64,000 bases of DNA from Lutibacter agarilyticus (GTDB lineage Bacteria; Bacteroidota; Bacteroidia; Flavobacteriales; Flavobacteriaceae), in NCBI RefSeq assembly GCF_900188235.1, contig NZ_FZNT01000008.1:1-64000 (forward strand), read 5' to 3'. The position numbers and the translations under genes were made by a program. This document shows, one piece after another, positions 25,028-56,599 of the stretch. Below the pieces are notes generated by a model. It had not been told where the DNA came from. It was given only the letters and a program-made list of their open reading frames with translations, and made no database searches. Numbering within the stretch: position 1 is the stretch's first letter; each line of letters opens with the position of its first letter.

Positions 25028-25082
25028 CAAAAGTAATGACTCAAAGTGTTCATTTCTTTGCACTATTGTTCTATTATTTTCA
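25028..25082 (-). promoter_or_regulatory. Promoter with PUL regulatory motif, small type IX gene
   Basis: On the minus strand a TACTTTTG -7 box (25028-25035) lies 31 bp upstream of the start codon. Exactly 24 bp further upstream is the motif beginning GCACTATTGT (25060-25082, written on the plus strand). Its inverted half CAATAGTG recurs at 25122-25129, giving a 69-bp inverted arrangement from 25061. The same box, spacing and motif occur at 35504-35558 and 56498-56552, so this is probably an activator site for the hybrid two-component regulator. Confidence 0.72.
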
Positions 25083-25188
25083 CTTTTTCCACTTTTTTCA
25101 ACACTTATACAGCTATTTAAACAATAGTGAAAAATAGAACTATCGTTTTGAACAATAATCTTGTTAAATAATCTAAAATTCTCATTAA

Positions 25189-26904
25189 TTATTTCTTTTT
25201 CAATCTGTTTTGAAGTTGATAATTATATAATGAACTAATTGCAGGTATCTGATTTTGATTTTCAATATACGCATTAGGTGTATAATCTATTTTTATTGGA
25301 TGATTGGCATGAAACCCAATTAACCTAGCTGATATACCGTTAATTATTCCATTTAAAAGAATTGGTTTATTTAAGCTTTCAGGTATGTTTGCAAAATTAA
25401 TATCAATATTAAACATTGTACTAAAAGCGCCATGAGCAGGATGCCAAAATTTTGAACCTCCCGACTTAAATAAAGGATACTTTAATGTTTCGTGCACTGG
25501 TGCATCAATGTAAACCTTAATATTATCGAATAAATTTTGTTGGTTTGCACCACTATGCTGATCTAAAATAGGCTGCTGCTCTATTGTACAATTTGTATAC
25601 ACACATTTTGTAGAACGTGTATTAAAACTCAACGGATGCCTAACCTTATTTTTAATGTAAAGGTTTTCTACTAAAACATTATGAACCTCACCCATAGAAA
25701 CAGAATAGTGTGCTAATTTATCACCATAAGTAATAACATCCTGTATGGTTACATTTGAAATATCATCTGTTAAAATACCGCTATCTGCATTTTTAAATCG
25801 AACATTTTTTACCCAACCGTTCATTAAACTAGTTAAGTATATAGCGTTGTTTCCTTCTTCTAAGTGATGTGGTAAATCTGGATATAAAGGAAACTCAAAA
25901 GCTATATTTTCAATACCAACCTCCTCTATATGCTCCCATTCAGTAATGGCACAATGCCAGTCTGTTTTAATATCGTGTAATAAAGGCGCTTTAATATAAA
26001 CCGTATTTTTATCTATTTTAGTAACCAATACCATTTGTGTAACCAACGGACTTTCTGGATTATCCCAATGATGTTTTCCAATTTCTATATTTTGGTTGTC
26101 GTACAAGTGCTTTAAAAAAGAACCTTCTTTGCCATCTTTATTAAACCAACATAGTTTATAGGTTTCTCCAACCTTAACTTTTGAGGCGTCATCTACTTGA
26201 ATTTTAAAATCACCTTGTTTTCCTGATAATCCTTTTGCATAAGTAGTGATAGGTTGATTGTACTTTGGAATGTTATAAGATTTATAAAACTTTCCCTTTT
26301 TAGCTACCCAAATAAAAGCTCCAGACCATGAGTATTGTGAAAAAGTGTTATCCACACCATTTTGTGGTTCTCTTTGTTTTTTATCAAAAACAGAAAGATA
26401 TGCCATCAACTCTTCATGCTCGGGTGGATCTTGAACAAAACGTAGAGATCTTTGGAAATACAAAACAGTTCCTTTTTCACCAGCACCAACACCTCTCAAA
26501 ACCGTTTTACTACGATTTATATAGATAATTTTACTGATGTTAAATTTTCCAGAAGGAATATTTATTACCACATAGCCTTCTAATTCATCTGCTTTTTTAA
26601 CGGCGTCAATAAAGGCTTTACTATCATCAATATCATCATTGGGTTTTGCACCAAAATCGGTTACATTTAAATAATGATCATATTGTTTTGGTGTTTCCTT
26701 TTCTCCAAAATGATAACCTGCAAAAGAGAAATCTGGCAAATAATTTTCTTTGATTACTTTTTTGTTTACCAAAATTTCTGGCATTTTAGCTTCTTGAGAA
26801 AATGCAGTGTTTAGCACAAATACCCCTACAAAAACTAATACTTTAGTATTAAATAGATACTTATTCTTTCTTTCTTTTTTAGATTTATTGCCCATAACAT
26901 TCAT
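25189..26904 (-). CDS. Secreted parallel beta-helix protein (putative polysaccharide lyase or hydrolase)
   Basis: A 571-residue protein. The upstream Lys/Arg-rich MNVMGNKSKKERKNK precedes the hydrophobic signal (about 20-37, ending NTAFSQ), so Met4 is an alternative start. The signature LPDFSFAGYHFGEKETP (about 54-70) links it with the other three beta-helix proteins here. A pectate-lyase-superfamily helix follows (VTDFGAKPNDDIDDSKAFIDAV, then IPSGKFNISKIIYINRSKTVLRGVG). Near the C-terminus, HSGANQQNLFDNI and HPAHGAFSTMF carry conserved His residues. The gene lies 106 bp downstream of a GH106 gene. No catalytic assignment is possible from sequence alone. Confidence 0.72.
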   Translation of the reverse strand: MNVMGNKSKKERKNKYLFNTKVLVFVGVFVLNTAFSQEAKMPEILVNKKVIKENYLPDFSFAGYHFGEKETPKQYDHYLNVTDFGAKPNDDIDDSKAFIDAVKKADELEGYVVINIPSGKFNISKIIYINRSKTVLRGVGAGEKGTVLYFQRSLRFVQDPPEHEELMAYLSVFDKKQREPQNGVDNTFSQYSWSGAFIWVAKKGKFYKSYNIPKYNQPITTYAKGLSGKQGDFKIQVDDASKVKVGETYKLCWFNKDGKEGSFLKHLYDNQNIEIGKHHWDNPESPLVTQMVLVTKIDKNTVYIKAPLLHDIKTDWHCAITEWEHIEEVGIENIAFEFPLYPDLPHHLEEGNNAIYLTSLMNGWVKNVRFKNADSGILTDDISNVTIQDVITYGDKLAHYSVSMGEVHNVLVENLYIKNKVRHPLSFNTRSTKCVYTNCTIEQQPILDQHSGANQQNLFDNIKVYIDAPVHETLKYPLFKSGGSKFWHPAHGAFSTMFNIDINFANIPESLNKPILLNGIINGISARLIGFHANHPIKIDYTPNAYIENQNQIPAISSLYNYQLQNRLKKK

Positions 26905-27010
26905 TTTATCAGCGTGTTGTTATTATTTGCTCAAAAAAACCTTTCAAAAAATTATAAACCATTCTATTTGTAGCTACGTTTACATTCCAAAAAGATATAT
27001 TTATTGTTCA

Positions 27011-30000
27011 TTACTTAATTGTTTTGTATTGTTTAAACGTTATCATAATTGGCCCAACTAATCCTGCTGGTATTAAATCATCTCCTTTTTTAAAGAAATT
27101 ATATGTTGTAAACGTGGTACGCTTACCTAGTGGTGCAGGCTCATTATTCTTATACCATTCTGGCATCTCCTTTGAATCGTAATACCCCGAAAGGTCTGGA
27201 TAATTTTCATCACCAATTAATCTATTCGTCCATTGATTGGTAATTTCAATTTTCAAAACATTTCCTCCTTTTTTCACAGCATCCGTAATGTCTATTTGAT
27301 AAGGCGCTTTCCAAATAACACCTAAATCTTTTCCGTTTAAAATTACTTTTGCAGCAATGTCTACCTTGCCTAAATCTAGTATTAACTTTACATCCTTAGC
27401 AAGCACCTTTTTATTTATATTGAAAGATTTCTCATAAATAGCAGTACCAGAAAAATACTTTATCTCTTCATTGCTATGTGTAGTCCAATCTATTAATTCA
27501 GAAAAATTAAATGTTTTTTGTTCCGATTTTATCGTTGGAAATGACACTTTCCAATTAGATGAAATATCAACATTTTCAGAAATTTGTTTTACTTTAATCG
27601 TTTTTGTTTCACCGTTATTTAATTTTACATTATAAACTCCAGCTTTTGAAATATTAAATTCAATCTTATTTTCTTTTGATAAAACAGCTTGAACTAATGG
27701 GGTATTTAAGGCATAATCGGCTTGAATACTCGTTACATTATTTGACGACTCTCTAAATACAACAAATACAGATCCTTCAGAAGACAATTTAACAATAGTA
27801 ATAGTTGTGCCATTTTTATTATGATTGAAGGCTGCAACTTTTGTAATTTCTCCATTCAATTGATTCCATAGCTCTGGAATTTTATTCGCCACATTAAAGG
27901 TACATTTGAAGGTCTTTTCATTTTCAGTTGGATTGTAAAAGAAGTAAATATCTTCATTTTCAGTTTTACGGTGCGTGTACCCAATATCATTTCCGTCTTC
28001 AATAACTAAATCTTTAGGAATATTGTATGAATTATAAATTTCTTCCCATGGTTTGTTTTTTAAAGTATTAGGTGCACTCCAAATTAATTTTACCAATTTT
28101 TCAAATTCCTGTTTATCTACTAAAGAATTGTTATAACCTCCTAATTGTTCAGGCTTATCACCCGTAATTATAATGCCCTTTTCAGCTAACTCGGCTATTT
28201 TTCTTAAGGTAGAAAGTTTTACCTCCTTCATGTTTTTTAAATTCAGCATATAATAGGAAATACCATTGGGTAATACCATTTTATGATCTTTTACAGTAAT
28301 TCTATTGATCATTGCATCCGAATTAATACAATCAAAATTTACATAATCTGGTAATTTTGGACTAATGGAATTTACTTTATAAGATGAATTAGGTGTTCCA
28401 TCCCCAACAAATACTAGTAAGTCTGAAACAGGGATTCCTTTTCGTAACATATATTGACCACGTGCCAAATATTTGAACCAAGATTTCCCAGCATTGTCCC
28501 ACCAAGTTTGCGTTCTATCAATATGAGAACCCCAAATCCCCATAGTCATTCCAGGTGCTACATTTGTATTGGCTTGGTGAGCGTAACGATGGAACATAAA
28601 TTCGTTAATACCCAAAGTCCAAGCTTTATCTCCAGATAGTTTCATTTGCCCTGGGTGACTTCTCCAATTCACTTTTGGTAGTGCTGTAAATGCCTCTGCA
28701 GATACAATATTCTTACCATAAATACGGGCTCCAGATACAGCTGTTTCTGTTTTAAAATACCCACGCATCCAAAATTCTCCCATTGGGATATCTACTTTCT
28801 TAGTGGCATCTAGTTCGTTAAATGCAGCATTAAAACTGTAGGGCTCCACATAACTTATCAACCCTTCATCATGGCATAACTCTGTAAAATAATCGAAGTA
28901 ATTATCGGTCATCATTTTACTAGTAAAATTCCGCATATCCCACAAAACACGTTCTGTGGTATCTGTATTCTCTACATAACGTCCTGCATATAATGGTAGA
29001 AAGTCCATGATATCATACCCGAAATGTTCTTTAAAATAGTTCTCGTATCCTAGTGTCCAATTTTGACCACCTACCTCATAACTATCAATTTCTATATATT
29101 GCAAAGCATTGGGTGCTACTGGTTTTGAAACATCAATAACATTCTTTACATAACCATCAAAAAAAGTTTTAAAGGAAGCTTTACTCATTTTATCTACTTC
29201 CCATCCTCGACCTTCATCTGATGCAGGACCATTAACGGCCCCAGTGATGGTATATCCAAAACGCATGATGGTCCAATTCCCATTTGGCAACTTTGTTTTT
29301 AGCACGCCATTGTTGTTAACAAATTCGGTTAGATTGATAATTTCATCTTTCTTTACAATCATATTTTCTGGCGCTTGATCTAAAGATGGTAGCCTATGAT
29401 TTTCTTGCATAAATAAACTAGTGCGTGCCAACATATCATTAAACCTATAAACTCCGGTTAAGTTTATTTCTGAAATTTCAAAATCCATATCGGTTACAAA
29501 ACGAAAATAACGAGCTGTAATGGCATCAAAATGTTTGTCTATAGCATACTCTTTTTTACCTTGGCGCAATACTTTGAAATCTACAACATCTTTAAAATTA
29601 ATACCATCATTAGACATTTGAAGTTTGGTAATACCATTTTCTTTTTTCTTTTCACAATTTAGATAGAAAGATCTCACAGTATGTGGTTTTTTAAAGTCCC
29701 ATTGAATCCATGACAAGCCTTTTTCTGGAACTTTTAGCCAGTTGCGTTCATCAATTTTACCATCAATAACCATATCTATGTTAAAGTCTGAACTTGAGCT
29801 TGTAACTTCTGGTTTTATTTCAGATGTTATAACTTCAGATTCTAAAGCAGGATATGCAATAACAGCTACATCTTTGTAATAATCACCTCGTTTTGTAGGG
29901 TCAGGCAATTTCAAATTTATTTTACCTCCTTCTACAACCATTTCACGATGTACAATTTGTTTCATTGAATGTTCGGCAGTAACCCAAGGACCACCACTTG

Positions 30001-30358: not shown

Positions 30359-30371
30359 TATTTATAAATTT

Positions 30372-33894: not shown

Positions 33895-35307
33895 TTATCC
33901 ATTTGGCCCAACTTGGTTGGCAGACAAAACGCTGACAGATTTATTCCCTTTCCCCAACTCATCAGCTCCAATATCTTTCTTCCCTGTGCGAATTTGACCA
34001 TCCATATCATCAAGAACAAACTCATAGTTTCCTTTTGAATTATCAACTGCGGGACTATTTGATTTTATACTTGGAATACCATCGTTATCAAATTCAAACA
34101 TGGGATCTTTAATTATTAATCCACTATTTGGATGATTGTTTTTATTTCCTTTCCAAATAATATTTGCATCGAATTGAACACCATCCATTTTGGCTCCTAC
34201 ATCTTCTATAGCTTTATCACAATCATAAAAAATATTGTTCACTATTTTTAAATCTTGTGAACCACCATCACCGTTACTTATGAATGCTGAACTGTTTTTA
34301 CTAAACGTATTAAACCCAATGAAGCAATTAACAGGACGAATATGTGAGTATCCGGTTGGTTTTGATGCTTCTAATCTGCTAAAAAGGATTATCCCTGCAT
34401 TATCTCCAATAAATACATTGTTATACAACTTATGGTTACTGTCTGCAAAGCGAAGTTTAGAATTAAAAAAATAATTTCCATAGACTTTATGTTCTTGACC
34501 GTTACGAAGCGAAGTATGTGTGCAGTTTTTTACAGTATTGTACCTAAAAGTTACATCCCAACATTTGGCTGATAATACTCCTTCGGCATCTGCAGATAAA
34601 TTTTCAAACAAATTATGTTCAATAACCATATTTGCTCTACTGTTACCAAACTTACCATAACCCGGCTGCACGGCAGTGTTGTCATTATCAGCGTCACTAG
34701 TTGTAAAATCTTTAAAATAATTATGATGCACCCAGTTATTTTGTGCAATTTTACCGTTTGAACCTTGTAATGAAAGCATTGGCCCTCTAAAATTCTTATT
34801 CTGAAATGTATTATAACTCACTTCATTATTACTACCTGAAATAGCTAAATATGATGAACTCGTATTTGCATCTGTTTCTGAATCCTTGATACATTCATAT
34901 ACATTTCTGGTAAAAGTACAATGGGATGCAGAATTAAAAAGTCTATGATATGCCTCGTGCTTAAAAACAAATCCTTTGATAATCACATATTGCGTTGAAC
35001 CTTGGGTAACAAATCCATCTTTTCCATTTATAGTAACACCTCCAATGGTTTCAGCACGAATAATAATTGGTTCACTTTCTGTTCCCATTACATCTTTAAT
35101 GGAAATTTGACTACTTGTAGTATAAATACCATTTTTAACAATTATTTCGGTACCAGCTGTTGCCCTATTTACCTCAGTTTGTAACTGAGCAATAGATGTA
35201 ACAGTAACAGTGTTTGCAAACATTTGCAAACTTGATGCTAAGATGCAACAGATTATAAAGTTAATTTGCACTAGTCTTTTAGTCGTTTTTTTTGTAAACA
35301 TTATCAA
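33895..35307 (-). CDS. PL6-family (alginate lyase / chondroitinase-B-like) polysaccharide lyase
   Basis: A 470-residue secreted right-handed beta-helix protein (signal to about residue 31, MFANT). The PL6 opening VTSIAQLQTEVNRATAGTEIIVKNGIYT is followed by many strand-turn repeats. The probable catalytic pair is Lys248 in VLSAKCWD and Arg268 in TSLRNGQ, spaced like Lys and Arg of chondroitinase B. PL6 enzymes cleave uronate linkages by beta-elimination using Ca2+. Here the surrounding genes argue against alginate and for a sulfated uronate-rhamnose polymer. It has its own promoter with the PUL motif (35504-35558). Confidence 0.85.
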   Translation of the reverse strand: MIMFTKKTTKRLVQINFIICCILASSLQMFANTVTVTSIAQLQTEVNRATAGTEIIVKNGIYTTSSQISIKDVMGTESEPIIIRAETIGGVTINGKDGFVTQGSTQYVIIKGFVFKHEAYHRLFNSASHCTFTRNVYECIKDSETDANTSSSYLAISGSNNEVSYNTFQNKNFRGPMLSLQGSNGKIAQNNWVHHNYFKDFTTSDADNDNTAVQPGYGKFGNSRANMVIEHNLFENLSADAEGVLSAKCWDVTFRYNTVKNCTHTSLRNGQEHKVYGNYFFNSKLRFADSNHKLYNNVFIGDNAGIILFSRLEASKPTGYSHIRPVNCFIGFNTFSKNSSAFISNGDGGSQDLKIVNNIFYDCDKAIEDVGAKMDGVQFDANIIWKGNKNNHPNSGLIIKDPMFEFDNDGIPSIKSNSPAVDNSKGNYEFVLDDMDGQIRTGKKDIGADELGKGNKSVSVLSANQVGPNG

Positions 35308-35503: not shown

Positions 35504-35558
35504 CAAATTTACCAACTTACACACTCAATATTTAAGCACTATTGTATCATTACTTTCA
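35504..35558 (-). promoter_or_regulatory. Promoter with PUL regulatory motif, PL6 gene
   Basis: On the minus strand a TAAATTTG -7 box (35504-35511) is followed upstream, after exactly 24 bp, by GCACTATTGT...ATTA (35536-35558, plus-strand reading). This differs from the 25060 copy at only a few positions. The far inverted half seen at the other two sites is barely recognisable here. The transcript would have a leader of roughly 190 nt before the PL6 start at 35307. The remainder of the 412-bp gap (35308-35719) shows no gene. Confidence 0.7.
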
Positions 35559-35719
35559 TTATTGATGCGTATTTATATTATTGTCTCAAAAACGCTATTA
35601 TATTATTTTTAAGTTGAAGTCTTACATTCAACTCAATAATGACTAATAACAAAAGGAATTCAATCTGATTTTATAACTAAAACCTAAGTAGACATCCTAA
35701 AGAAATCTAGTTTTAAAAT

Positions 35720-38006: not shown

Positions 38007-38008
38007 TT

Positions 38009-40891
38009 TTATTCTTTTATCACTTTTACAAATACTGGTTTATCTCCATTTACTTTTACAATATAAACACCACTGGGTTTGTCTGTTATATCTATCAATA
38101 TCATGCCCGAACTTACAGGGTAGATTTGTGCTTCAATTAATTGTGAAAGCATATTATAAATCTCAACATCTATTTTTTGTATATTATTTGGAATATAAAT
38201 TTCAAACAAACCGTTGGATGGGTTTGGATAAGCTTTTATTTCTTCAAGAAAATTAATACTTTTTGAAACACCTCCTTCACAAGCTGTTTTGCTTACTACC
38301 TTTAATTGATCACCATGATTAACAGGTAGCGAAAAGCTAGATTGATACGTTTCAAATATAGCTTCTCCATTTTTATAGACCGTGTATGGAGCTGTTCCAA
38401 CTGCTACAGATACATAAGCCTTTTGTTTTGTAACTTTTATTTTCCCCGATAAATTAACACCACCTTCAATTATTACTGAGTAACACTGCTCATAATCATC
38501 TCCTGAAATACTGATACATAAATCATAAGTACCTGGGCTTAATCCATCAATTATTTTAGTAGTTGTAAAATCGTAATCTACACCATTCATACTCAATATG
38601 TAATTCCTGCTTTCTCCTGCATTAATAACCAACTTACCATTCTTTTTATCTACACAAGTTTCTCCCGTAGTTTCAATAGTAAAATTATCTGATGGCAATT
38701 GCGTTTTTGGACAACCTTGATTATCTACAACTGTTCCTTCTGGTGTACTTGAACATAAATCTTCTGAATTAGGAACACCATCGTTATCTGAATCATTAAC
38801 ATTACTTGTTACCGTATCGTTTATTTGAAACTCTTGAAATAAAATACCATTTTTTGAAGAGCCTACACCTGTTTTGCCAAATGGTATCGTTCCACTATAA
38901 GCTACTTTTGCAACTAGCCCATTATTCATGGTAAATATGATTTGGTTATTCTCTACACCCAACTTTAAAAGTACTTCTTCATCATTTTGTAAAACTGAAG
39001 AACTTCCTATTAACTTGCTTGTAGCTCCGTTTTTTACAGAAAAAATACCTGATTTTTCCTTATCTGTACTAACACGTGCAAACAGGTAGTTATTATCATC
39101 AATAAAAGAAGTAACTAAAACAATATCTGATTCTGTTCTATTCTCTAACTTATCAATACTTTTTATGCTAGTTTCAATTTCGTAAATAGCTTTTTGTGGT
39201 ATGGTTACTACCGAATATTCCGATAATTTCCCCGTTGAAACTAGAGGGAGTTCCTCTGCAAACAACGAATAATATTTCATACCTTCAATATTCTGAACTT
39301 TCCAACGTGATGCATCTCTTTCTTTCCAGTCAGCTCGGTTTCCATATTCATTACTATTAAAAACTGACTCATGAATAAATTCAGTATGGTATTTTTGTTG
39401 AATTTCATACAAGTCTTTTTCAGCTAAATTTGGTACATGCTCATACCATTCTCTTTCCTCTGTAAAAAGCTCTCCTGTATTTAAAGCAGATACGATGGTA
39501 CTTTGATACATACCCCAATGATTTCTTATTGTATTATTTATATCGCCCCAATACAAAGCAATCGACTCTCCATACAAGCCCCAATAAACATTACGTGCTC
39601 CTGCATATGGTCCTGCTGTATTAGTACCTGTACTTCTATGATTCCAATCAGTACGTACATCACATATTAAATTTGAAAAAGGTGCATTACGGTGAAAATC
39701 CAGACTAATAGTACTAGCTCCTTTTACATTTCTTAATACATTTCCATTTGATTTATGTATAAAAGTGATTGCATGTGTATATGGAATACTTGTATTTATG
39801 TTGATGTTACTTATTACATTGCTAGAAGAATAAGCATACGTAAAACCATGATGCCCATCTCTTCCTTCAATTACAATATCATCAATTTCTCCGTACGCTG
39901 AATATTTAAGGAAAATTGGATTATCAGCATTTACTATTGTTAGGTTTTTACACCAAAAATTGTAGCAACTATTAAAACCAATAGGGTTATATCCTGGTTC
40001 TGTTAAATGCTCTGCATGCTCTTTTTCAATCACTTCTATCCTTATATCTTCCATACCCACATTTTGCAACGCACTGTTTCGTTGGTATACAAACATTTCC
40101 CAAGAAGGTTTAAGTCTAAGTCTTAAGGGTTCACGAAGCGTAATTAAATTACCTTCAATTTTTTCTATGGTATGAAACATATTACCGCCATCAGCCGAAA
40201 GCCAGCTACTATGAGGTTCAGGATAATCTTGAGTTTGGTTATTAAAGTATTCATACCACAATTCTCCATTTACAGGGTTATTACCATCAGCATTTATTTC
40301 TATAATATCTCCTTGCTTTAATTTACTGGCATCCTCTACTACAATCACTTTGTCAGATCTCAATGCTTCCTCTGTAATTTTAGTAACCTTACTACTATAT
40401 CTCCCAAAAAACTCTATAATATGACCTTTATCTCCTGTAGCATAAAGTCCACTAAATTCCCCATTGATATCGGTAGCTGAATTGGGCATATAAAATACAG
40501 TACCGTCTGCTCCATCACCTGCTCCCCTAAGAACAACATTGCTTCTTTCTATTTTGAGCCAATCATCAATCACATATCTTCCGGCAGGAAAATAAATAAT
40601 ACTATTATCGGGAGCTGATTTAATTATAACATCAATAGCCAAAATATCACTTAAACCATCATTAGCTACAACACCTTGATCTAATACATTAATAATATTA
40701 CTAAATACTGGTTTTTCAGCATACCCACCTCCATAACCTGCATAAGAAAAATCGGAAAGTCGGCCACGTGAGTCCCATAACTCTCCTTTTTCACCCCATA
40801 AATCTGAAGTTGTTTTTGTTTGTGACTGAATATAATTACTACTTAGTAGTAGAATTAATAAAATTGATATTTTTTTTATAATCCTTTCCAT
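38009..40891 (-). CDS. Large type IX secreted beta-helix protein, copy A (putative lyase)
   Basis: A 960-residue protein. Signal peptide (about 1-24). N-terminal signature SDFSYAGYGGGYAEKPVF (about 46-63) and a pectate-lyase-like beta-helix to about 510. A beta-sandwich (about 540-690) ends GKTGVGSSKNGILF, followed by a thrombospondin type 3-like Asp-rich linker (NDSDNDGVPNSEDLC), an extra beta domain, and the type IX sorting tail (KAYPNPSNGLFEI...PSGVYIVKV). Residues about 23-526 are nearly identical to copy B while the rest is diverged. Surface display by type IX secretion fits an endo-acting enzyme that starts depolymerisation. Family unassigned. Confidence 0.75.
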   Translation of the reverse strand: MERIIKKISILLILLLSSNYIQSQTKTTSDLWGEKGELWDSRGRLSDFSYAGYGGGYAEKPVFSNIINVLDQGVVANDGLSDILAIDVIIKSAPDNSIIYFPAGRYVIDDWLKIERSNVVLRGAGDGADGTVFYMPNSATDINGEFSGLYATGDKGHIIEFFGRYSSKVTKITEEALRSDKVIVVEDASKLKQGDIIEINADGNNPVNGELWYEYFNNQTQDYPEPHSSWLSADGGNMFHTIEKIEGNLITLREPLRLRLKPSWEMFVYQRNSALQNVGMEDIRIEVIEKEHAEHLTEPGYNPIGFNSCYNFWCKNLTIVNADNPIFLKYSAYGEIDDIVIEGRDGHHGFTYAYSSSNVISNININTSIPYTHAITFIHKSNGNVLRNVKGASTISLDFHRNAPFSNLICDVRTDWNHRSTGTNTAGPYAGARNVYWGLYGESIALYWGDINNTIRNHWGMYQSTIVSALNTGELFTEEREWYEHVPNLAEKDLYEIQQKYHTEFIHESVFNSNEYGNRADWKERDASRWKVQNIEGMKYYSLFAEELPLVSTGKLSEYSVVTIPQKAIYEIETSIKSIDKLENRTESDIVLVTSFIDDNNYLFARVSTDKEKSGIFSVKNGATSKLIGSSSVLQNDEEVLLKLGVENNQIIFTMNNGLVAKVAYSGTIPFGKTGVGSSKNGILFQEFQINDTVTSNVNDSDNDGVPNSEDLCSSTPEGTVVDNQGCPKTQLPSDNFTIETTGETCVDKKNGKLVINAGESRNYILSMNGVDYDFTTTKIIDGLSPGTYDLCISISGDDYEQCYSVIIEGGVNLSGKIKVTKQKAYVSVAVGTAPYTVYKNGEAIFETYQSSFSLPVNHGDQLKVVSKTACEGGVSKSINFLEEIKAYPNPSNGLFEIYIPNNIQKIDVEIYNMLSQLIEAQIYPVSSGMILIDITDKPSGVYIVKVNGDKPVFVKVIKE
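39314..40824 (-). repeat. 1511-bp near-perfect direct repeat, unit 1
   Basis: This segment matches 41658-43168 at a constant offset of 2344 bp with no gaps. I find four mismatches by eye. Both edges are sharp: outside them the two genes are only distantly similar. It covers the beta-helix domain and stops at the end of the signal-peptide coding part. Confidence 0.93.
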
Positions 40892-40892
40892 G

Positions 40893-43253
40893 TTAATTAA
40901 TTATCATTTTTTTGAAATAGCTTTGCCCCTCTAAATTAGAGACTTTCACAATATAAACACCTTGAGAAAATACACCCTTAGCAGCTATTTTTATTGATGT
41001 CTTATTTGCTATTGTTTTATACAACAATTGTCCATTCATATTAAAAATGGTAATTGTAGCATTTGTAAAGTTTTGCAAGGATATAACAAACTCATTTTCA
41101 ATTGGATTTGGATAAATTTTAAAGCTATTGATTGTACTTTCATTAAGAGACAGCACATCTCCATTTTCTAAAAACTTCAATAAAACTATTCCGTTTCTAG
41201 AGGATCCTACACCTGCCTTACCAAATGAAATGTTAAGTACATTATTAGCTTTAGCTATTTCATTATCATCTAAGGTAAAAACAACATTTCCACTATCAAT
41301 TACTAATTTTAGTGTCACATAACCATTTGTAGAAAGCGTAGAACCTGTACCTGCTAATTTTGTAACATTACCATTAAGCACTCTATATATTCCTGACTTG
41401 CTTGAATCAGCACTCAATCTTCCAAAAATATAATTATCATCATTACTAAACGCAGTAATTATAGCAACATCAGATTCGTTTTCAATTTCACTAGTTACAT
41501 AACGTTTTACTCTTGCCTCAACCTCATAAGTGTTTCCTTCTGGAATATCAATAACAGAATATTCTGATAATTTCCCGGTTGAAACTGGTGGAAGATCTTT
41601 AGCAAAAAGCGCATATCTATTATTACCAGCTATATCAATTACTTTCCATCGGGAGTTATCTCTTTCTTTCCAGTCAGCTCGGTTTCCATATTCATTACTA
41701 TTAAAAACTGACTCATGAATAAATTCAGTATGGTATTTTTGTTGAATTTCATACAAGTCTTTTTCAGCTAAATTTGGTACATGCTCATACCATTCTCTTT
41801 CCTCTGTAAAAAGCTCTCCTGTATTTAAAGCAGATACGATGGTACTTTGATACATACCCCAATGATTTCTTATTATATTATTTATATCGCCCCAATACAA
41901 AGCAGTCGACTCTCCATACAAGCCCCAATAAACATTACGTGCTCCTGCATATGGTCCTGCTGTATTAGTACCTGTACTTCTATGATTCCAATCAGTACGT
42001 ACATCACATATTAAATTTGAAAAAGGTGCATTACGGTGAAAATCCAGACTAATAGTACTAGCTCCTTTTACATTTCTTAATACATTTCCATTTGATTTAT
42101 GTATAAAAGTGATTGCATGTGTATATGGAATACTTGTATTTATGTTGATGTTACTTATTACATTGCTAGAAGAATAAGCATACGTAAAACCATGATGCCC
42201 ATCTCTTCCTTCAATTACAATATCATCAATTTCTCCGTACGCTGAATATTTAAGGAAAATTGGATTATCAGCATTTACTATTGTTAGGTTTTTACACCAA
42301 AAATTGTAGCAACTATTAAAACCAATAGGGTTATATCCTGGTTCTGTTAAATGCTCTGCATGCTCTTTTTCAATCACTTCTATCCTTATATCTTCCATAC
42401 CCACATTTTGCAACGCACTGTTTCGTTGGTATACAAACATTTCCCAAGAAGGTTTAAGTCTAAGTCTTAAGGGTTCACGAAGCGTAATTAAATTACCTTC
42501 AATTTTTTCTATGGTATGAAACATATTACCGCCATCAGCCGAAAGCCAGCTACTATGAGGTTCAGGATAATCTTGAGTTTGGTTATTAAAGTATTCATAC
42601 CACAATTCTCCATTTACAGGGTTATTACCATCAGCATTTATTTCTATAATATCTCCTTGCTTTAATTTACTGGCATCCTCTACTACAATCACTTTGTCAG
42701 ATCTCAATGCTTCCTCTGTAATTTTAGTAACCTTACTACTATATCTCCCAAAAAACTCTATAATATGACCTTTATCTCCTGTAGCATAAAGTCCATTAAA
42801 TTCCCCATTGATATCAGTAGCTGAATTGGGCATATAAAATACAGTACCGTCTGCTCCATCACCTGCTCCCCTAAGAACAACATTGCTTCTTTCTATTTTG
42901 AGCCAATCATCAATCACATATCTTCCGGCAGGAAAATAAATAATACTATTATCGGGAGCTGATTTAATTATAACATCAATAGCCAAAATATCACTTAAAC
43001 CATCATTAGCTACAACACCTTGATCTAATACATTAATAATATTACTAAATACTGGTTTTTCAGCATACCCACCTCCATAACCTGCATAAGAAAAATCGGA
43101 AAGTCGGCCACGTGAGTCCCATAACTCTCCTTTTTCACCCCATAAATCTGAAGTTGTTTTTGTTTGTGCGTAAATACCCGAAAACATATTTACTTGTAAA
43201 CACAAAACAATTATAGAAACTAAAAGTTGCAACTTAGTTGAGATTTTGTTCAT
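40893..43253 (-). CDS. Type IX secreted beta-helix protein, copy B (putative lyase)
   Basis: A 786-residue paralogue immediately upstream of copy A (1 bp between them). It has a different signal peptide (about 1-29, SGIYAQ), the same beta-helix domain (about 28-532), a homologous but clearly diverged sandwich domain (about 545-690, ending GKAGVGSSRNGIVL), and directly a type IX sorting domain (KIYPNPIENEFVI...SQGVYIVKV). It lacks the Asp-rich linker and extra domain of copy A. Between the beta-helix domains I count three residue differences (Ser/Asn, Ile/Thr, Thr/Ile), with a fourth at the very boundary. Confidence 0.75.
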   Translation of the reverse strand: MNKISTKLQLLVSIIVLCLQVNMFSGIYAQTKTTSDLWGEKGELWDSRGRLSDFSYAGYGGGYAEKPVFSNIINVLDQGVVANDGLSDILAIDVIIKSAPDNSIIYFPAGRYVIDDWLKIERSNVVLRGAGDGADGTVFYMPNSATDINGEFNGLYATGDKGHIIEFFGRYSSKVTKITEEALRSDKVIVVEDASKLKQGDIIEINADGNNPVNGELWYEYFNNQTQDYPEPHSSWLSADGGNMFHTIEKIEGNLITLREPLRLRLKPSWEMFVYQRNSALQNVGMEDIRIEVIEKEHAEHLTEPGYNPIGFNSCYNFWCKNLTIVNADNPIFLKYSAYGEIDDIVIEGRDGHHGFTYAYSSSNVISNININTSIPYTHAITFIHKSNGNVLRNVKGASTISLDFHRNAPFSNLICDVRTDWNHRSTGTNTAGPYAGARNVYWGLYGESTALYWGDINNIIRNHWGMYQSTIVSALNTGELFTEEREWYEHVPNLAEKDLYEIQQKYHTEFIHESVFNSNEYGNRADWKERDNSRWKVIDIAGNNRYALFAKDLPPVSTGKLSEYSVIDIPEGNTYEVEARVKRYVTSEIENESDVAIITAFSNDDNYIFGRLSADSSKSGIYRVLNGNVTKLAGTGSTLSTNGYVTLKLVIDSGNVVFTLDDNEIAKANNVLNISFGKAGVGSSRNGIVLLKFLENGDVLSLNESTINSFKIYPNPIENEFVISLQNFTNATITIFNMNGQLLYKTIANKTSIKIAAKGVFSQGVYIVKVSNLEGQSYFKKMIIN
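41658..43168 (-). repeat. 1511-bp near-perfect direct repeat, unit 2
   Basis: Partner of 39314-40824, same orientation. Recombination between the units would delete 2344 bp and fuse the 5' part of copy B to the 3' part of copy A in frame. This also makes the region a likely place for assembly collapse in short-read data. Confidence 0.93.
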
Positions 43254-45174: not shown

Positions 45175-46209
45175 TTATTCTGTAAGTTCTATTTTGAACT
45201 CTTCAAAAATCACATCTCTATCTCTAACCACTAGAGTATCTTTCACCTTATGGGTTTCATTGCTTGCACTATCTGTATAAGCATAATCTAGATAAACTAC
45301 ATCGCGTTTTTTATCTCCCCAAGTATCACCATCTTCAACAAATATACCTGAGCCAGAAACATTGTATGGATCATCACCAAAACTTCTAACAATACAACTA
45401 CCTTCATTATCAAAAACTAGTTCAAAATTTACATCACCAGGACTTACATCATCACCTCTTCTAATACGATTTGATAATTCTACATTGCTTTTACCTGTTG
45501 TGGTTAATTTTACTAGTTCATCTCTTTCAATAAATTCTGTGCGATATTCAGTAGTAATAGTTTCATTTGCAGCGTTTGTCATTACATCTACTCCACGACG
45601 TAAATAAATTGCTTGGTATTTATTCATGAATTTAATACCATAAAGTGTATAATCTTTAGGTGTAAATTCCCAATCTTCTTCATTTACTCTAGACGGATTT
45701 ATAATCCCCTCTAAAGGTTTACCTACCAAAAGAGTATCTAAATTCTCGACTTCTGTAATTAATACAGGAACCACATAGTTTACTGTTTTTTCTGGAGCAA
45801 AAGATAATGGATCTTCAAAAAAGGCATCAGTTAATTGTACTTCAATTCTTCCTTTAACAGATCCTTTAGGTATTGTAACTGGACTTGGAGTTTCAATGGT
45901 ATAATAATTTTCTGGTAAAGCTACTACATTCTCTACACCGTCAAGAAGTTCTGGCGCTACTTGAAAATGCACACTTCTATTTTCTTTATTACTATATACA
46001 CCCGTCATGGTTACTCCAATTTCAAACTTGCTATTGTTATCATTTTCGTTTACTCCAAGATCATATTTTCCTAAAATAAGGCTTCGTGCTGGAGTTTGAA
46101 AAGGAAAGTACACAGCTGTAAAATCGTAATCACCAAACTCAATGTCTTGATTTTCACAAGCCATAATACTGATTACAGCAACTAATAATATTAATATTTT
46201 TGTTTTCAT
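45175..46209 (-). CDS. Surface glycan-binding lipoprotein, DUF1735-like
   Basis: A 344-residue lipoprotein (lipobox SIMAC, Cys18). The N-terminal DUF1735-like domain shows FTAVYFPFQTPARSLILGKYD, then FQVAPELLD...LPENYYTIETPSPVTIPKGSVKGRIEVQLTDAFF. The C-terminal half carries beta strands ending TLVVRDRDVIFEEFKIELTE. Proteins of this kind follow susD genes and bind the target glycan at the cell surface. Here it comes 43 bp after the second susD-like gene. Confidence 0.82.
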   Translation of the reverse strand: MKTKILILLVAVISIMACENQDIEFGDYDFTAVYFPFQTPARSLILGKYDLGVNENDNNSKFEIGVTMTGVYSNKENRSVHFQVAPELLDGVENVVALPENYYTIETPSPVTIPKGSVKGRIEVQLTDAFFEDPLSFAPEKTVNYVVPVLITEVENLDTLLVGKPLEGIINPSRVNEEDWEFTPKDYTLYGIKFMNKYQAIYLRRGVDVMTNAANETITTEYRTEFIERDELVKLTTTGKSNVELSNRIRRGDDVSPGDVNFELVFDNEGSCIVRSFGDDPYNVSGSGIFVEDGDTWGDKKRDVVYLDYAYTDSASNETHKVKDTLVVRDRDVIFEEFKIELTE

Positions 46210-46251
46210 AATTCGTGTTTTAAACTTTTTTAAATAAAATGTTCACTAATA

Positions 46252-47973: not shown

Positions 47974-47997
47974 ATTTAAAAGTTTTATTTAATTGAC

Positions 47998-51048: not shown

Positions 51049-51069
51049 TTAAATTAAGACTCTGAAAAT

Positions 51070-52905
51070 TTACCAACCTGGATTTTGAGGAAATCCATCA
51101 TAAATCTGAGTTTGGCTTGCTTCAAATGGCAACCAGTAATGTTTTGGATAATCACAAACTCTATTTACCAGCACAAATTCCTCGAAATACGAATAAGTTC
51201 CAGTATTAGGGTCCTTTTCAGGAAAATTAACACCCGTTTTAGTTTTATATCGATCTAAATGTGCTACAACCCATCTACGAATATCTACCCAACGGTGCGC
51301 TTCAAAAGAAAGTTCAACACTACGTTCACGACGTAACTCGTCCATAAATTCGTTTGGATCTGAAACTTTAGAAGGATGTACCTGAGGTATTCCTGCTCTA
51401 TCTCTTAACATATTTATAGCTTGTTCTGCTGATAAATTGTATGAAGCTGGTTGTGAAACAGCGCTGTTTGTAGCTGCTAATAATGCTTCGGCATACATTA
51501 AATAAATATCTGTAAGTCGCATTCGAATTCTCCATGGTGTATATTTATTATCCAATCTATTCCATTTACTATGTAATGTTGGATAATATTTTTTAAAGAA
51601 GTAACCTGTTTCAGACCCTGTACTACTGTTACGGTGCAATCCTCCTTCATAAAGTTGAGCTATTTTATGTTGTCCTGCTGATGATTTTGTTGCCAAAACA
51701 TCTCCATTAACAGTAATCCACTTATAAAACCTAGGATCACGATTTTCAAAAGGTTTTGCAGGATCGAATGTAGGGGCTCCATAATTTCCACTCATATCAT
51801 CTTGAACTGAAAGCCCATTGGCCATTCCAAAATTATAATGAATAAAGTTATGTGTAGGACTTAGCACTTTACTACCTCCACCTGCAACTTTACTATCCAT
51901 TTGAAGTCTAATAACTTCCCTAGTTAAACTGTAATTAAATCCAGTACTATTGAAAATAAATTCGGTACCTCCTGGCCAAACTTTAGCTGGCACATCCCAA
52001 AATACTTCCTCATAATTTTCAAAAGTGGATAATGCATAGGTACCTTGGTCTGCCAATTTAAGTAACTCAGCAAAAGCATCAACAGCCATTGCAGCTAAAT
52101 CACTATCATAGTCATAGGTATTAGTACTTCCTTTCATTAATGGACTGGCAGCAAAAAGTAAATTTTTACCCATATAACCATAAGCAGCACCTTTAGTTAC
52201 ACGACCTTTATTTTCGCCAAATGTTTTTTGTCCATAGGTTTCATCATCCCACTTTACTGGTAATAATTCTGCAGCTTTTTTAAAATCTTCATGAATTGCA
52301 AGTGCAGTTTCTCTGTAAGAGTCTGGACGAGGTAAGTTATAATCCTCAACCAAAACTTTATTAACATAAGGGTAACGCCCCCAAAACTTCATAATTTCTA
52401 GATGAAAAAAAGCTCTAAAAAAATATGCTTGACCTAAAATAACATTCTTCTCATCCTCTGTAGCATTTACAAGTAAGTCAATATTTTCAATTGCAATATT
52501 TGCTTTACGAATTCCTAATAATGATCCATTATAAACCCCTGGTCTATGCAATGTTCTCGCATCGTTAGGATCATTTGTTCTAATGCGATCCGTTTTATTT
52601 AAATAAGTAAAATCATTTCTTATCCAAAAACCTAGCTCCCCTTTATCTATTCGATTCATTGGTTGCCAACCATTATTTATTGTCGCATCATCTCCATACA
52701 AATAATCGGTTTGTTGATGTCCACCTGTTTGGTAATCTGTTACCAAAGCATACATTTCTTCCACAAACCCTTGCATATTATCAAAGTTCTTGAATACATC
52801 TTCAATTTCGATCACTGATTCAGGCGCTGCGTCTAAATATTCCTCGCATGAGAAAGAAAACAAAAGCCCTAAAATACATAGTGTTTTAATAATAATATTT
52901 TTCAT
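51070..52905 (-). CDS. SusD/RagB-family glycan-binding lipoprotein (pair 1)
   Basis: A 611-residue lipoprotein (lipobox SFSC, Cys20) with SusD hallmarks: VILGQAYFFRAFFHLEIMKFWGRYPY helix, GAAYGYMGKNLLFAASPLMKG, MRLTDIYLMYAEALLAA, LRRERSVELSFEAHRWVDIRRW and the end YDGFPQNPGW. Aromatic-rich loops in the second half are the usual glycan platform. It lies 10 bp downstream of the pair 1 susC gene. Confidence 0.95.
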   Translation of the reverse strand: MKNIIIKTLCILGLLFSFSCEEYLDAAPESVIEIEDVFKNFDNMQGFVEEMYALVTDYQTGGHQQTDYLYGDDATINNGWQPMNRIDKGELGFWIRNDFTYLNKTDRIRTNDPNDARTLHRPGVYNGSLLGIRKANIAIENIDLLVNATEDEKNVILGQAYFFRAFFHLEIMKFWGRYPYVNKVLVEDYNLPRPDSYRETALAIHEDFKKAAELLPVKWDDETYGQKTFGENKGRVTKGAAYGYMGKNLLFAASPLMKGSTNTYDYDSDLAAMAVDAFAELLKLADQGTYALSTFENYEEVFWDVPAKVWPGGTEFIFNSTGFNYSLTREVIRLQMDSKVAGGGSKVLSPTHNFIHYNFGMANGLSVQDDMSGNYGAPTFDPAKPFENRDPRFYKWITVNGDVLATKSSAGQHKIAQLYEGGLHRNSSTGSETGYFFKKYYPTLHSKWNRLDNKYTPWRIRMRLTDIYLMYAEALLAATNSAVSQPASYNLSAEQAINMLRDRAGIPQVHPSKVSDPNEFMDELRRERSVELSFEAHRWVDIRRWVVAHLDRYKTKTGVNFPEKDPNTGTYSYFEEFVLVNRVCDYPKHYWLPFEASQTQIYDGFPQNPGW

Positions 52906-52915
52906 TGTTCTCTGT

Positions 52916-55900
52916 TTAAAAGTTTAAGTTAAAACCAAAATTGATTCTTCTCAACGTTGGATAATCTCCTGTACGGTCAGAATCTTGAGAATTACTACCA
53001 TTAAATTCTCTATCATCTGGTAAATCAGTCCACAATAACAAGTTATTACCGTTTACAAAAAATCGCATACTACTTACTCCCATTTGACTACAAAACGATT
53101 TTGGTATATCATAAGCAAATTCTACTGTTCTTAAACGCACTACCGATGCATCAAATCTATTTCGCATTGGATCTAAAGCTGCATTGTCAAGAGTCCAAGG
53201 TTGTAAAGTAAGGGTAGCATCCTGATTATCTGGAGACCAGTAATCCTGTAAATAATCAAAAAACAAATATGTTTCTTTATTAAATGTTCTTGAGTCTAGT
53301 GTTCTATTGGCATTCTGAGAACCATAAAACATTAGCATTAGATTAAATCCTTTATAGCTTCCTCCAACATTCCAAGTCCAAGTATTTTGAGGACGGTCTG
53401 AGTAACCTAAAGGCGCGTTATCATCTGTGCTATTGTAATCACCATTTCCATTATAATCAATAACATCATAATATCCTGGACGACGGAAATTTTGATCATT
53501 TACCGTTGGAGTTGACATATAAATATCATCCCAACTAGCTAAAATATCTCCTGCAATTGCAGCACGTGGTTGACCAATAATGTATCCTGCTGCTTTTTGA
53601 TAAAACGGTTTTAATTCTGGATCTTCTCTTGCTATAACTTTGTCTTTTGCACGTGTATAACTAAAGTCTGTGAATAACCTCAAGTCATTTGCAAACGTAT
53701 GTTTTAGTCCAAGTACAAATTCAAATCCTTTTACATGAACAACTCCTGTATTTGCTGCTGGTGGTGCAAAACCAAAGAAATCTGGAACATTTCGATTTGT
53801 ACCTGTTATAAAAATATTCTCTCTGTCTTCTGCAAAATAATCAAACTGTGCTGTTACAGCGTTTTGAAATAAAGCTAAATCTATACCTATATTAGACTTT
53901 AAAGATGTTTCCCATTGTAATTCTGGATTACCCGCAACTTGTTCACTGTACCATATATATGGTGATCTATTCTGAATATGACTAGGTACTAAAAAAGAAC
54001 TTCCTCCATTTTCCCATCTAGTGTCGTATAAAAATCTATTACCATTAGCTCTATCATCTCCTACCAAACCATAAGAACCACGTATTTTTAAGGTATTTAA
54101 CCAATCTTCATTACTTAAAAAATTTTCATTGGATATCATCCAACCTGCAGCGGCAGAAGGAAACAATTCAAAACGGTAGCCTGGACCAAATTTCTCTGAA
54201 CCATTATAAGCTCCATTAACATCTAAAAAATATTTATCATCGTAATTATAAGTAATACGACCTACCCAATCTTCTCTATATGAAGGAAATACAGACCCTC
54301 TAGCAGACTCTTCTCTTTGGAATAAAAATAATCCTGAAGTATTATGCTTATCTGCAAAAGTTCTCTTGTAATTTAAGGCTCCTTGATATGTTAATCTTCT
54401 AAACTTTGAGCCATTACTTACATTTAAAGCCGATTGTGTCCAAGGCTGAATTACATAATCAAAATCATTAACACCATCAGGTGAAGTAATTATTTCATTT
54501 CCATCAACATCATAAATTCTATAAATTACATTATCATAATCGGAATCACCTCTATCTCTAATAGATCTTCCTGCTGTCGTGTTATTGTCATAAGACAATC
54601 TTGCATTTAAACTTAACCCTTTAGTTATAAAATTAAGTTTTTGATCTAAAATAAAATCACTACTAATCCCTACTCTATTTGAAGTTTCAGCTCCTCTTTG
54701 AGTAAGGTAAATTAACGGGTTTCTAAAACTTGACTCACCACTAACATGATCTCCATATAATCCATCTGGATAAAGAGGTGTGTAAAGTGAAGATGCAATA
54801 TTATATAATCCATTAAGAGGCTTTGTTATATCACTTATAGGTTTCTCCTGAACTCCATAATACCCAGAAATATTAACCGAAACTTTTGTTGATGATGTAA
54901 TATTAAAATCTAAATTACTTCGGTAATTAAAACGATCATATCTATATTCACTATTATATCCCTTACCATTATTATATTCTGATCCTTTAAAAATATCTCG
55001 TGTTGTTTGGTAAGATAAACTTCCAAAATACTTAGCAAAATCTGAACCACCTCTTACAGAAAGATTAACTCTAGTATCTGTGACTTGATCTTTCAAAAGA
55101 ACATCGTGCCAATCAACATCTGGATACTGAAAACTCTCTTCCAATGTAGCAGGGTTTCGGTATTTATCTTGAATTTGGAAAGGAACAATGTCATTCCATG
55201 AGTTAGGAGTATAAGCCAACTCACGCATAATTGACTCATTTGCATGCGTAATAGATGAAAATGAATTTAACTGTTTAGGTAATTTTGATACCGATTTAAC
55301 GGTTGCATTACCAGAAAGTGAAAGCTGAGCTTTACCTGACTTACCTCTTTTTGTTGTAATTAAAATAACCCCGTTAGCACCTTTAACACCAAATACAGCA
55401 GTAGCTGAAGCATCTTTTAATACTGAAATTGACTCAATTTCATTTAAATCAAGATCACCCATTGAACGCTCAATGTTATCTACAAGAATAAGAGGCTGTC
55501 CTCCTCCATTCCAAGAACCTTGACCACGAATAAAAATTTTAGGATCTGTTTGCCCTGGCAATCCACTAGACGAGATGGCAACTACACCAGGTAATTTTCC
55601 TTGAATTGCTTCACCTACGTTTGATACACCCCCAGATTTCATTAGGTCTTCTCCTTTAGCTTTAGTTATGGCGCCAACAACACTTTCTTTCTTTTGTGAA
55701 CCATATCCTATAATTACTATATCATCTAATTGTTCTGCAGCGCTTCGCATTATCAATGCTATTTTAGTTTTCCCTGAAGCAGGCACCTCCTCTATTTCCA
55801 TCCCTATATAAGAGAATACAAGAATATCAAGTTCGCTCTTTACTTTTATTGCAAATTCACCGTCAAAATCAGTAACAGCACCATTCTTAGTGCCTTTTAC

Positions 55901-56041
55901 AATAATTGACACCCCTGGCAAGGGGATACCTCCTTCATCTGTAACAGTTCCCGCAATTGTTTTTTCCTGTGCAAAAACGAATGCTGTACATAAAAAAAGC
56001 ATCACGACCATACAAAGTTTTAATCTGTCATTTAGTCTCAT
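52916..56041 (-). CDS. SusC/RagA-family TonB-dependent transporter (pair 1)
   Basis: A 1041-residue outer-membrane transporter with signal peptide (about 1-24, FVFAQ). The carboxypeptidase-D-like domain (TIAGTVTDEGGIPLPGVSIIVKGTKNGAVTDFDGEF) is followed by the plug, starting with the classic LDDIVIIGYGSQKKESVVGAIT and containing PLILVDNIERSMGDLDLNEIESISVLKDASATAVFG. The barrel ends YPTLRRINFGFNLNF. It is the first structural gene of the PUL, divergent from the hybrid regulator gene. Its promoter with the regulatory motif is at 56498, leaving a long leader. Confidence 0.96.
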   Translation of the reverse strand: MRLNDRLKLCMVVMLFLCTAFVFAQEKTIAGTVTDEGGIPLPGVSIIVKGTKNGAVTDFDGEFAIKVKSELDILVFSYIGMEIEEVPASGKTKIALIMRSAAEQLDDIVIIGYGSQKKESVVGAITKAKGEDLMKSGGVSNVGEAIQGKLPGVVAISSSGLPGQTDPKIFIRGQGSWNGGGQPLILVDNIERSMGDLDLNEIESISVLKDASATAVFGVKGANGVILITTKRGKSGKAQLSLSGNATVKSVSKLPKQLNSFSSITHANESIMRELAYTPNSWNDIVPFQIQDKYRNPATLEESFQYPDVDWHDVLLKDQVTDTRVNLSVRGGSDFAKYFGSLSYQTTRDIFKGSEYNNGKGYNSEYRYDRFNYRSNLDFNITSSTKVSVNISGYYGVQEKPISDITKPLNGLYNIASSLYTPLYPDGLYGDHVSGESSFRNPLIYLTQRGAETSNRVGISSDFILDQKLNFITKGLSLNARLSYDNNTTAGRSIRDRGDSDYDNVIYRIYDVDGNEIITSPDGVNDFDYVIQPWTQSALNVSNGSKFRRLTYQGALNYKRTFADKHNTSGLFLFQREESARGSVFPSYREDWVGRITYNYDDKYFLDVNGAYNGSEKFGPGYRFELFPSAAAGWMISNENFLSNEDWLNTLKIRGSYGLVGDDRANGNRFLYDTRWENGGSSFLVPSHIQNRSPYIWYSEQVAGNPELQWETSLKSNIGIDLALFQNAVTAQFDYFAEDRENIFITGTNRNVPDFFGFAPPAANTGVVHVKGFEFVLGLKHTFANDLRLFTDFSYTRAKDKVIAREDPELKPFYQKAAGYIIGQPRAAIAGDILASWDDIYMSTPTVNDQNFRRPGYYDVIDYNGNGDYNSTDDNAPLGYSDRPQNTWTWNVGGSYKGFNLMLMFYGSQNANRTLDSRTFNKETYLFFDYLQDYWSPDNQDATLTLQPWTLDNAALDPMRNRFDASVVRLRTVEFAYDIPKSFCSQMGVSSMRFFVNGNNLLLWTDLPDDREFNGSNSQDSDRTGDYPTLRRINFGFNLNF

Positions 56042-56497
56042 AAATTTAAATTTAGTTTAAGTGTTTGTTTTTTATTAGTTAATTAATATTTGTTAAAATG
56101 TTAGTAATGTTATTTCCATAATTATTGTTTAAGTGATTTTTATTTAAATGAAATTTCCGTAGAAGTATTTCATAAAAAAATAATGATAATAACTTTTAAG
56201 ACCTCCTAGAAAGTTAGTGTACACATAGCTTCCTTTTTTTTTTGAATACAAATTAAGTTCAGCCAGAACTAAACTTATTAAGTGGATTTTAGAAGTATTA
56301 TAATTAGAGTGGTTTGGCATATTAAAATAAATACACCCTAAATTAAGGTTATTGCAATTCGCACTTTCTATTCCATTATTAGAATTTAAAAGTTCATTAG
56401 AATTGCTTTTTTTTAAACAAGTTAAAATCTTTACAAAAGATGATATAAATCTAAGTTTGTACATTTGCGGTTAAAATGTAGTTTGGTTATTAGAAGA
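56042..56497 (-). other. Long untranslated leader of the susC operon
   Basis: If transcription starts at the 56498-56505 promoter, the mRNA carries about 450 nt before the susC start. The stretch contains a 106-codon open frame on the minus strand (56464 to 56144) starting about 28 nt after the predicted start site. Its Asn/Ser-rich sequence matches nothing I know, and I consider it more likely chance than a leader peptide. No strong hairpin is evident. Confidence 0.45.
56460..56467 (+). promoter_or_regulatory. Possible -7 box for the hybrid regulator gene
   Basis: TACATTTG fits the Bacteroidota TAnnTTTG consensus on the plus strand, 164 bp upstream of the regulator start. I see no convincing TTG at -33. 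It would overlap the divergent susC promoter region, so activator binding could affect both genes. Weak by itself. Confidence 0.3.
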
Positions 56498-56599
56498 CAA
56501 ACTTAGACACTAGAAGAAGTTATTTCTATGCACTATTGTTCCATTATTGTCAAATCTACTGTAGTTTTTCACTATAATCCCACAATTGCATCAATAGTG
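56498..56599 (-). promoter_or_regulatory. Promoter with PUL regulatory motif, susC operon
   Basis: On the minus strand a TAAGTTTG -7 box (56498-56505) lies exactly 24 bp from the motif GCACTATTGTTCCATTA... (56530-56552, plus-strand reading). The inverted half CAATAGTG is at 56592-56599, giving the same 69-bp span from 56531 as at the 25061 site. It drives the susC-led operon leftward and lies directly upstream of the regulator gene, the classical position for a hybrid two-component system operator. Confidence 0.75.

Follow-up and report, generated by a model that had tools for sequence, protein, structure and literature searches.

A candidate operator of a hybrid two-component system regulator at three promoters of a polysaccharide utilization locus in Lutibacter agarilyticus

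Hybrid two-component systems (HTCSs) control many polysaccharide loci in Bacteroidota, and in the reports consulted here their operators have been predicted by comparative genomics and their binding has been tested on promoter fragments or by ChIP-seq (PMC3878776, PMC11253607). The DNA analysed here, called the window, is a stretch of 64,000 nt from Lutibacter agarilyticus (assembly GCF_900188235.1, contig NZ_FZNT01000008.1, positions 1 to 64,000), the genome of which (G000) comprises 4.10 Mb in 22 contigs with a completeness of 99.97%. It holds a polysaccharide utilization locus (PUL) with an HTCS gene, and three minus-strand sites of this locus, S1, S2 and S3, share an array of boxes at a fixed distance from the promoter. 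To judge from the sequences, it is highly probable that the three sites are operators of the neighbouring HTCS, which would activate three operons and probably its own gene.

The primary-sigma promoter of Bacteroidota carries the box TAnnTTTG at -7, spanning -12 to -5 (PMC9723704, PMC7366714). An earlier note on this DNA had placed three such boxes on the minus strand, each preceded at an identical distance by a common 23-bp motif, and all of its coordinates are correct (Table 1). The -7 boxes of S1 to S3 (TACTTTTG, TAAATTTG and TAAGTTTG, respectively) match the published box in 6/6 positions, ACAATAGTGC lies exactly 24 nt upstream of each of them, and the columns common to the three sites make up a stretch of 23 nt, TGAnAnTAATnnnACAATAGTGC. 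The evidence lies in this geometry and not in the word itself, because the word with up to two mismatches is not enriched in the window (71 found against 61.9 +/- 7.8 expected); exact GCACTATTGT occurs there three times. TAnnTTTG is found 97 times in the 64 kb, both strands counted, and the chance that all three boxes share one of 60 offsets is roughly 2.6e-8 if independence is assumed. Six runs of second-order shuffles gave no 8-mer with three co-spaced boxes; the real window gave four, three of which are words of this motif, while the fourth, TATTCATT, has two of its three places inside a tandem gene duplication. The genome-wide scan that the note had proposed, performed as CAATAGTG-N22..32-TAnnTTTG, returned five matches, namely S1 to S3 and two with other spacings, and the reversed-pattern control returned none. 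The note had further described an inverted half at the first and third sites, making up a two-half arrangement of 69 bp. S1 and S3 do carry the inverted CACTATTG at 61 nt upstream of CAATAGTG, with the stated span of 69 nt, while S2 is without it, and TCACTATTG-N40..66-CAATAGTG matched twice in the genome, both times in this locus; the arrangement, however, is not one of two halves, but one of direct boxes with a step of about 20 nt and a single inverted box upstream.

In the genomes scanned, the array recurs beside an orthologous HTCS in one other genome only. Among 397 genomes of the family a single close orthologue was found, in G431, which belongs to another genus, with 68% identity over query residues 7-1363; the next-best matches reached 41% and 36%, and in G425, which has the 41% HTCS, no such site was seen in the 811 nt inspected. 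Further draws of 395 order and 375 class genomes contained no HTCS orthologue at E <= 1e-215, and among the matches listed the identity was at most 37% in a scan of 84,980 species genomes and at most 38% in the 37 congeners (of the 38 genomes of the genus, 29 have a completeness of at least 90% and a contamination of at most 5%). Both G431 sites lie within 1.6 kb of its HTCS gene: G431a is located in the HTCS-susC intergenic region, and G431b about 1.5 kb past the other end of the HTCS gene, before a gene of the same function class, one for a PL14-type lyase. These sites were first spotted by an exact word and then subjected to a blind test with a model, R2, built from the three sites of the window alone. 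With strict filters, ten candidates scored per genome and a threshold of E 1e-4, R2 recovered in the 397 family genomes its own three sites and the two G431 sites (E 7.7e-9 and 1.1e-6), the latter matches spanning columns 2-75 and thus excluding the -7 box. A marginal match in a third genome, G088 (E 4.7e-5), was rejected; it lies antisense over the first codons of an unrelated gene, in what we take to be a BatA/BatB-like cluster, and no gene in the 3 kb inspected was recognised as a carbohydrate gene. At E 1e-3, R2 found no match beyond S1 to S3 in the own 4.1-Mb genome and the 37 congeners. A model of all five sites scored them at 65-82 bits in G000 and G431 and gave no other match above 21 bits; a 20.9-bit match falls on the reverse strand across the inverted-box end of G431b, and in G000 the strongest unrelated match scores 17.8 bits (E 0.01).

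These results support the proposal that one activator, most simply the AraC domain of the HTCS, acts at the three sites, since in the 397 family genomes credible sites recur only beside the 68% orthologue, and the congeners, which have no close HTCS among the matches listed, have no site at E 1e-3. A second correction to the note is that the inverted box of S3 is probably part of the promoter that serves the HTCS gene itself.

Gapless alignment of the five sites (S1, S2, S3, G431a and G431b; 104 columns) shows the anatomy of the candidate operator. When the proximal CAATAGTG is set as 0 and the five sites are taken together, CAATARTG-like direct boxes stand at -39, -20, -11 and 0, and an inverted copy stands at -61 in all sites except S2. 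The box scores, summed over the five sites and each out of 40, are 31 at -39, 31 at -20, 35 at -11 and 36 for the inverted box, against maxima of 26 (direct) and 27 (inverted) in 2000 simulated sets at any offset from -100 to -8, the five sites having been selected via their CAATAGTG and the consensus picked after inspection. The stretch CAATAATGnAACAATAGTG, 19 nt long, consists of two similar halves 11 nt apart and matches the footprint expected of one AraC-type domain with two helix-turn-helix (HTH) motifs.

The distance to the promoter is fixed. The -7 box starts at +33 in 5/5 sites, complete at S1 to S3 and with 5/6 positions at G431a and G431b, and the background rate of such boxes in the intergenic DNA of the window is 0.0148 for at least 5/6 and 0.0010 for 6/6. 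In the spacers of all five sites no -33 element TTTG stands at the expected distance, in keeping with activator dependence; at S1 a TTTG lies just 10 nt from the -7 box, on its upstream side. If the -7 box is placed as published, the proximal box extends from about -45 to -38.

From the boxes, their registers, spacing and conservation, and their co-occurrence with the orthologue, we infer the following course of binding, phosphorylation dependence and activation. The phosphorylated HTCS would bind the direct boxes through its AraC-type domain as tandem subunits, and the last subunit would sit on CAATAATGnAACAATAGTG with two contacts 11 nt apart. Placed at about the position just given, immediately upstream of where a -33 element would be, this subunit could bring in the primary sigma factor where a promoter has a -7 box but lacks a -33 element, and the HTCS would thereby turn on three operons of the locus. 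The inverted box of S3 would hold a subunit in the opposite orientation, at the same distance from a -7 box that faces the HTCS gene, so that the HTCS would probably activate its own gene as well.

That the third site adjoins the HTCS gene was rightly noticed before (Table 1). The encoded protein combines in one chain a periplasmic propeller sensor with Y_Y_Y, HisKA, HATPase, receiver and AraC-type HTH parts, and carries the phospho-acceptor motifs HEFRTPL at 841 and DIMMPEMDG at 1162 (residues counted from 56632); the best solved match to its receiver-DNA-binding-domain (DBD) part is PDB 12aw_A, named hybrid two-component system protein (E 1.5e-49). Facing the gene, a -7 box stands at +33 from the inverted box in 2/2 genomes, with 5/6 positions in the window and 6/6 in G431, where it reads TATTTTTG. 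Because the proposed -7 box ends with base 56632, the true translation start of the HTCS is probably the ATG at 56656 (MNKLQPLF...), which resembles the N-terminus of the G431 protein (MNKFTLVF...); the predicted transcript start at about 56637 would leave a leader of 19 nt. Autoregulation of the HTCS is likely on these grounds.

The operators could nevertheless be those of the HTCS while the inverted box has no autoregulatory role, the HTCS gene being constitutive and the box serving the main promoter alone, as an extra subunit or via DNA bending. This is a substantial possibility, if not the one we favour. Published descriptions have the HTCS genes of Bacteroides thetaiotaomicron expressed constitutively at a low level, an argument against autoregulation, and the inverted box is retained at S1 and G431b, both without a divergent gene. 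At exactly these two sites, on the other hand, the +33 position matches just 2/6, so that the HTCS-facing -7 box is kept where the HTCS gene diverges and absent where no gene does, and S2 is without any inverted box.

It is improbable that the boxes are bound by another regulator, for instance by the GntR-type protein, which besides the HTCS is the one regulator recognised in the window. Its gene stands in the same locus, and G431 possesses a GntR-type protein of 49% identity elsewhere in its genome, although orthology is doubtful because G000 carries a 47% paralogue too. However, the 80-kb region of G431 with both sites yields no GntR alignment at E 1e-8; its nearest GntR relative is about 1.8 Mb away, while the sites are close neighbours of the HTCS gene. 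Tandem direct boxes also suit AraC-type domains more than GntR dimers.

Pairs of sites agree in 66-89% of the columns within the inverted, -11, 0 and -7 boxes, in 36-54% of the between-box columns (nine of ten pairs) and in 25-43% of the outside flanks, which argues that the main boxes are constrained. Some copying among the sites is likely, given the between-box identity of 54% for S1-S3 and of 70% for the tenth pair, G431a-G431b, but that the sites are simply recent copies of one intergenic sequence, similar by ancestry and not by constraint, is very improbable in view of the lower identity outside the boxes and of boxes and spacing that hold across two genera.

Several observations weigh against our interpretation of the sites as HTCS operators with an autoregulatory half. 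Individual boxes can be weak (3/8 for the -20 box of S3 and 4/8 for the -39 box of S1), and the -39 and -20 boxes, when pooled, show 44-81% identity from site to site; for S1-S3 their identity of 50% is no better than the 54% of the between-box columns, and we are less sure of these two boxes as constrained elements. The co-occurrence of HTCS and operator rests on a single independent lineage, because a close orthologue turned up in just one other genome, in a scan that was strictly filtered as described. In G431 the susC gene behind the site is cut short, with only its first 283 residues aligning (L147 7819-8796). The reverse-strand match of the five-site model at S3 (56531-56630) is weak, with 11.1 bits and E 1.4 genome-wide, and with 14 bits and E 0.0028 in the window alone. 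Finally, the leaders are long, about 200 nt at S2 and about 450 nt at S3 against medians of 24 and 32 nt.

Regarding the leader of S3, a 106-aa open reading frame (ORF) within it may be the true first gene, since its ATG lies at a usual leader length from the predicted start (Table 1). The G431a leader contains only a 70-codon open frame without an early ATG, and the good alignment of the S3 and G431a leaders is limited to about the last 33 nt and the first 21 nt of susC. No Rfam family was found at gathering score in the window or L147, and scans of 16000-55999 for sigma-70-type promoters and terminators gave chance-level numbers. Leaders of about 330-460 nt precede the first large gene at S3 (window 56042-56497), G431a and G431b (L147 7487-7818 and 1738-2180). 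The truncated susC of G431 is followed at once by the C-terminal part of a homologue of 45175-46209, and no SusD or second SusC aligned in that stretch.

Table 1. Positions of the candidate operators, their boxes and the associated genes in the window.
Feature	Position	Strand	Remarks
S1 operator and -7 box	25028-25131	-	-7 box 25028-25035; promoter of gene 24134-24997
S1 boxes	proximal 25061-25068; -11 box 25072-25079; -20 box 25081-25088; inverted CACTATTG 25122-25129	-	
S2 operator and -7 box	35504-35607	-	-7 box 35504-35511; for 33895-35307 and downstream GH106 genes
S2 boxes	proximal 35537-35544; direct 35548-35555, 35557-35564, 35576-35583	-	no inverted box
S3 operator and -7 box	56498-56601	-	-7 box 56498-56505; susC-side promoter
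S3 boxes	proximal 56531-56538; direct 56542-56549, 56570-56577; inverted 56592-56599	-	
Proposed HTCS-gene promoter	56592-56632	+	CAATAGTG 56592-56599; TATTTTTA (5/6) at +33, 56625-56632
HTCS regulator	56632-60738	+	Pfam: Reg_prop, Y_Y_Y, HisKA, HATPase, receiver, AraC-type HTH_18
287-aa secreted protein with T9SS sorting tail	24134-24997	-	directly after S1; predicted 5' untranslated region about 26 nt
Lyase-like protein (Pfam Chondroitinas_B)	33895-35307	-	first gene after S2; followed by two GH106 genes and one pectate-lyase-like gene
SusC-like transporter	52916-56041	-	first large gene past S3; leader about 450 nt
106-aa ORF	56144-56464	-	no Pfam match; inside the S3-susC leader; ATG about 29 nt past the predicted start site
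GntR-type regulator	15305-16348	-	rival candidate

The PUL encodes two SusC-like and two SusD-like proteins, two GH106 rhamnosidases and two sulfatases, together with GH43, GH88-like and GH2 proteins, lyase-like proteins and proteins secreted by the type IX secretion system (T9SS), and its substrate is probably, from these protein families, a sulfated glycan with uronate and rhamnose. The carbohydrate genes are encoded by the minus strand, and beyond S3 the HTCS gene runs in the opposite direction, away from them. S3 is assigned to susC, S2 to the Chondroitinas_B-like gene with two GH106 genes and S1 to the small secreted protein; by gene order, the three promoters could divide about 32 kb into three operons. 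On the plus strand at S1 (25122-25163), CAATAGTG faces away from the site and is followed at +34, one base off register, by TAATCTTG (5/6), which could be an antisense promoter, weak or decayed, reading into 25189-26904. Two tandem T9SS proteins of pectate-lyase-like type (38009-40891 and 40893-43253, minus strand) are apparently paralogous and contain identical stretches, for example at 39345 and 41689. An IS110-type transposase (5467-6780, minus strand) stands at the left edge of the carbohydrate genes; together with the absence of close relatives of the HTCS from the genus, this suggests acquisition of the locus.

Other HTCS lineages allow a wider reading, which we put forward tentatively. 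In it, S3 would be a two-way operator, one array of HTCS boxes whose end box stands each way 33 nt before a -7 box and which drives both the transporter operon and the HTCS in a self-amplifying circuit, and HTCS operators would share this geometry while their letters change with the DBD. In the lineage of G358 and G157, whose HTCSs are about 63% identical to each other and 36% to that of the window, AACAT/AACAA boxes lie at -74/-75, -55/-56 and -33/-34 from the -7 box, with an inverted ATGTT at -88/-89, all chosen by eye and without a chance test. The letters differ from those of the window operator, but the skeleton is similar: a final box at 33-34 nt from the -7 box, more copies around -53/-56 and around -72/-75, and an inverted box near -88/-94. 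As for the two-way geometry, the evidence is the exact 8/8 match together with the same 61-nt distance in both genomes; a score of at least 7/8 alone proves little, because shuffles reach it in 19% of cases for the window sequence and in 5% for the G431 sequence.

As a general rule for all HTCS operators, the geometry was dropped and is not claimed here, owing to a test of 35 divergent intergenic regions, drawn from 95 HTCS loci scanned, of which 71 had a placeable start. Of 72 lags examined in these regions, 21 and 23 showed a weak excess of direct repeats (z 3.7 and 3.8); inverted repeats at 61 showed no excess (4 against 3.7). The two-way geometry occurred in 0/35 against 1.8 expected from shuffles, which also counts against the two-way reading. 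Other HTCS pairs gave no readable operator in a gapless comparison of 12 pairs and blastn of seven. In the gapless comparison the pair L120/L121 (G358/G157) missed the cut on the susC strand owing to a one-base difference in spacing, a match of L011/L017 was rejected as an operator because the stretch looks coding, and short shared blocks of 38 nt (L143/L144) and 59 nt (L038/L059) were found. A candidate HTCS operator different from that of the window, but with a similar skeleton, is common to two genera and located at about 14890-14995 in L151 and 15515-15625 in L153, with ATGTTGTT, AACAT boxes at steps of about 20 nt and TATTTTTG.

An HTCS acting on its own locus is the expected arrangement. 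The HTCS operators of B. thetaiotaomicron were predicted as direct repeats, 21 bp apart on average and bound by dimers on one face of the DNA (PMC3878776). The regulons described there (Ravcheev 2013, PMC3878776) resemble the present one in the AraC-type HTCS beside susC/susD, in the several operons of one locus per HTCS, and in direct repeats about two helical turns apart, 21 bp there and 20 here; the -20 and 0 boxes fit the published form, which lies upstream of susC-type operons, and so do, over the five sites together, the -39, -20 and 0 boxes. They differ in being described with direct repeats only, whereas here an inverted box (4/5 sites) and an extra -11 box are added, the -7 box keeps a fixed distance and a site also faces the HTCS gene. 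The candidate operator is an extended variant of the published form, and its less ordinary part is the inverted, self-facing half; no HTCS operator with an inverted half was found in the literature searched, and one may exist elsewhere. Receiver-DBD fragments of BT4124 and BT4663 and the inhibitory S/CHIP motif have been described as well (PMC11253607), and the HTCS of the window shares this motif as SHIP at residue 1184, judged by the motif alone. With its box positions, its promoter distance and a second genome, the locus offers a sharply defined operator on which HTCS binding and self-activation can be tested. The araC-araBAD system of E. coli likewise pairs an AraC-type activator with tandem half-sites beside a promoter and a divergent regulator gene, but the activator here is a membrane-bound sensor kinase and not a soluble sugar-binding protein, and the sequence, the spacing and the sigma factor are different.

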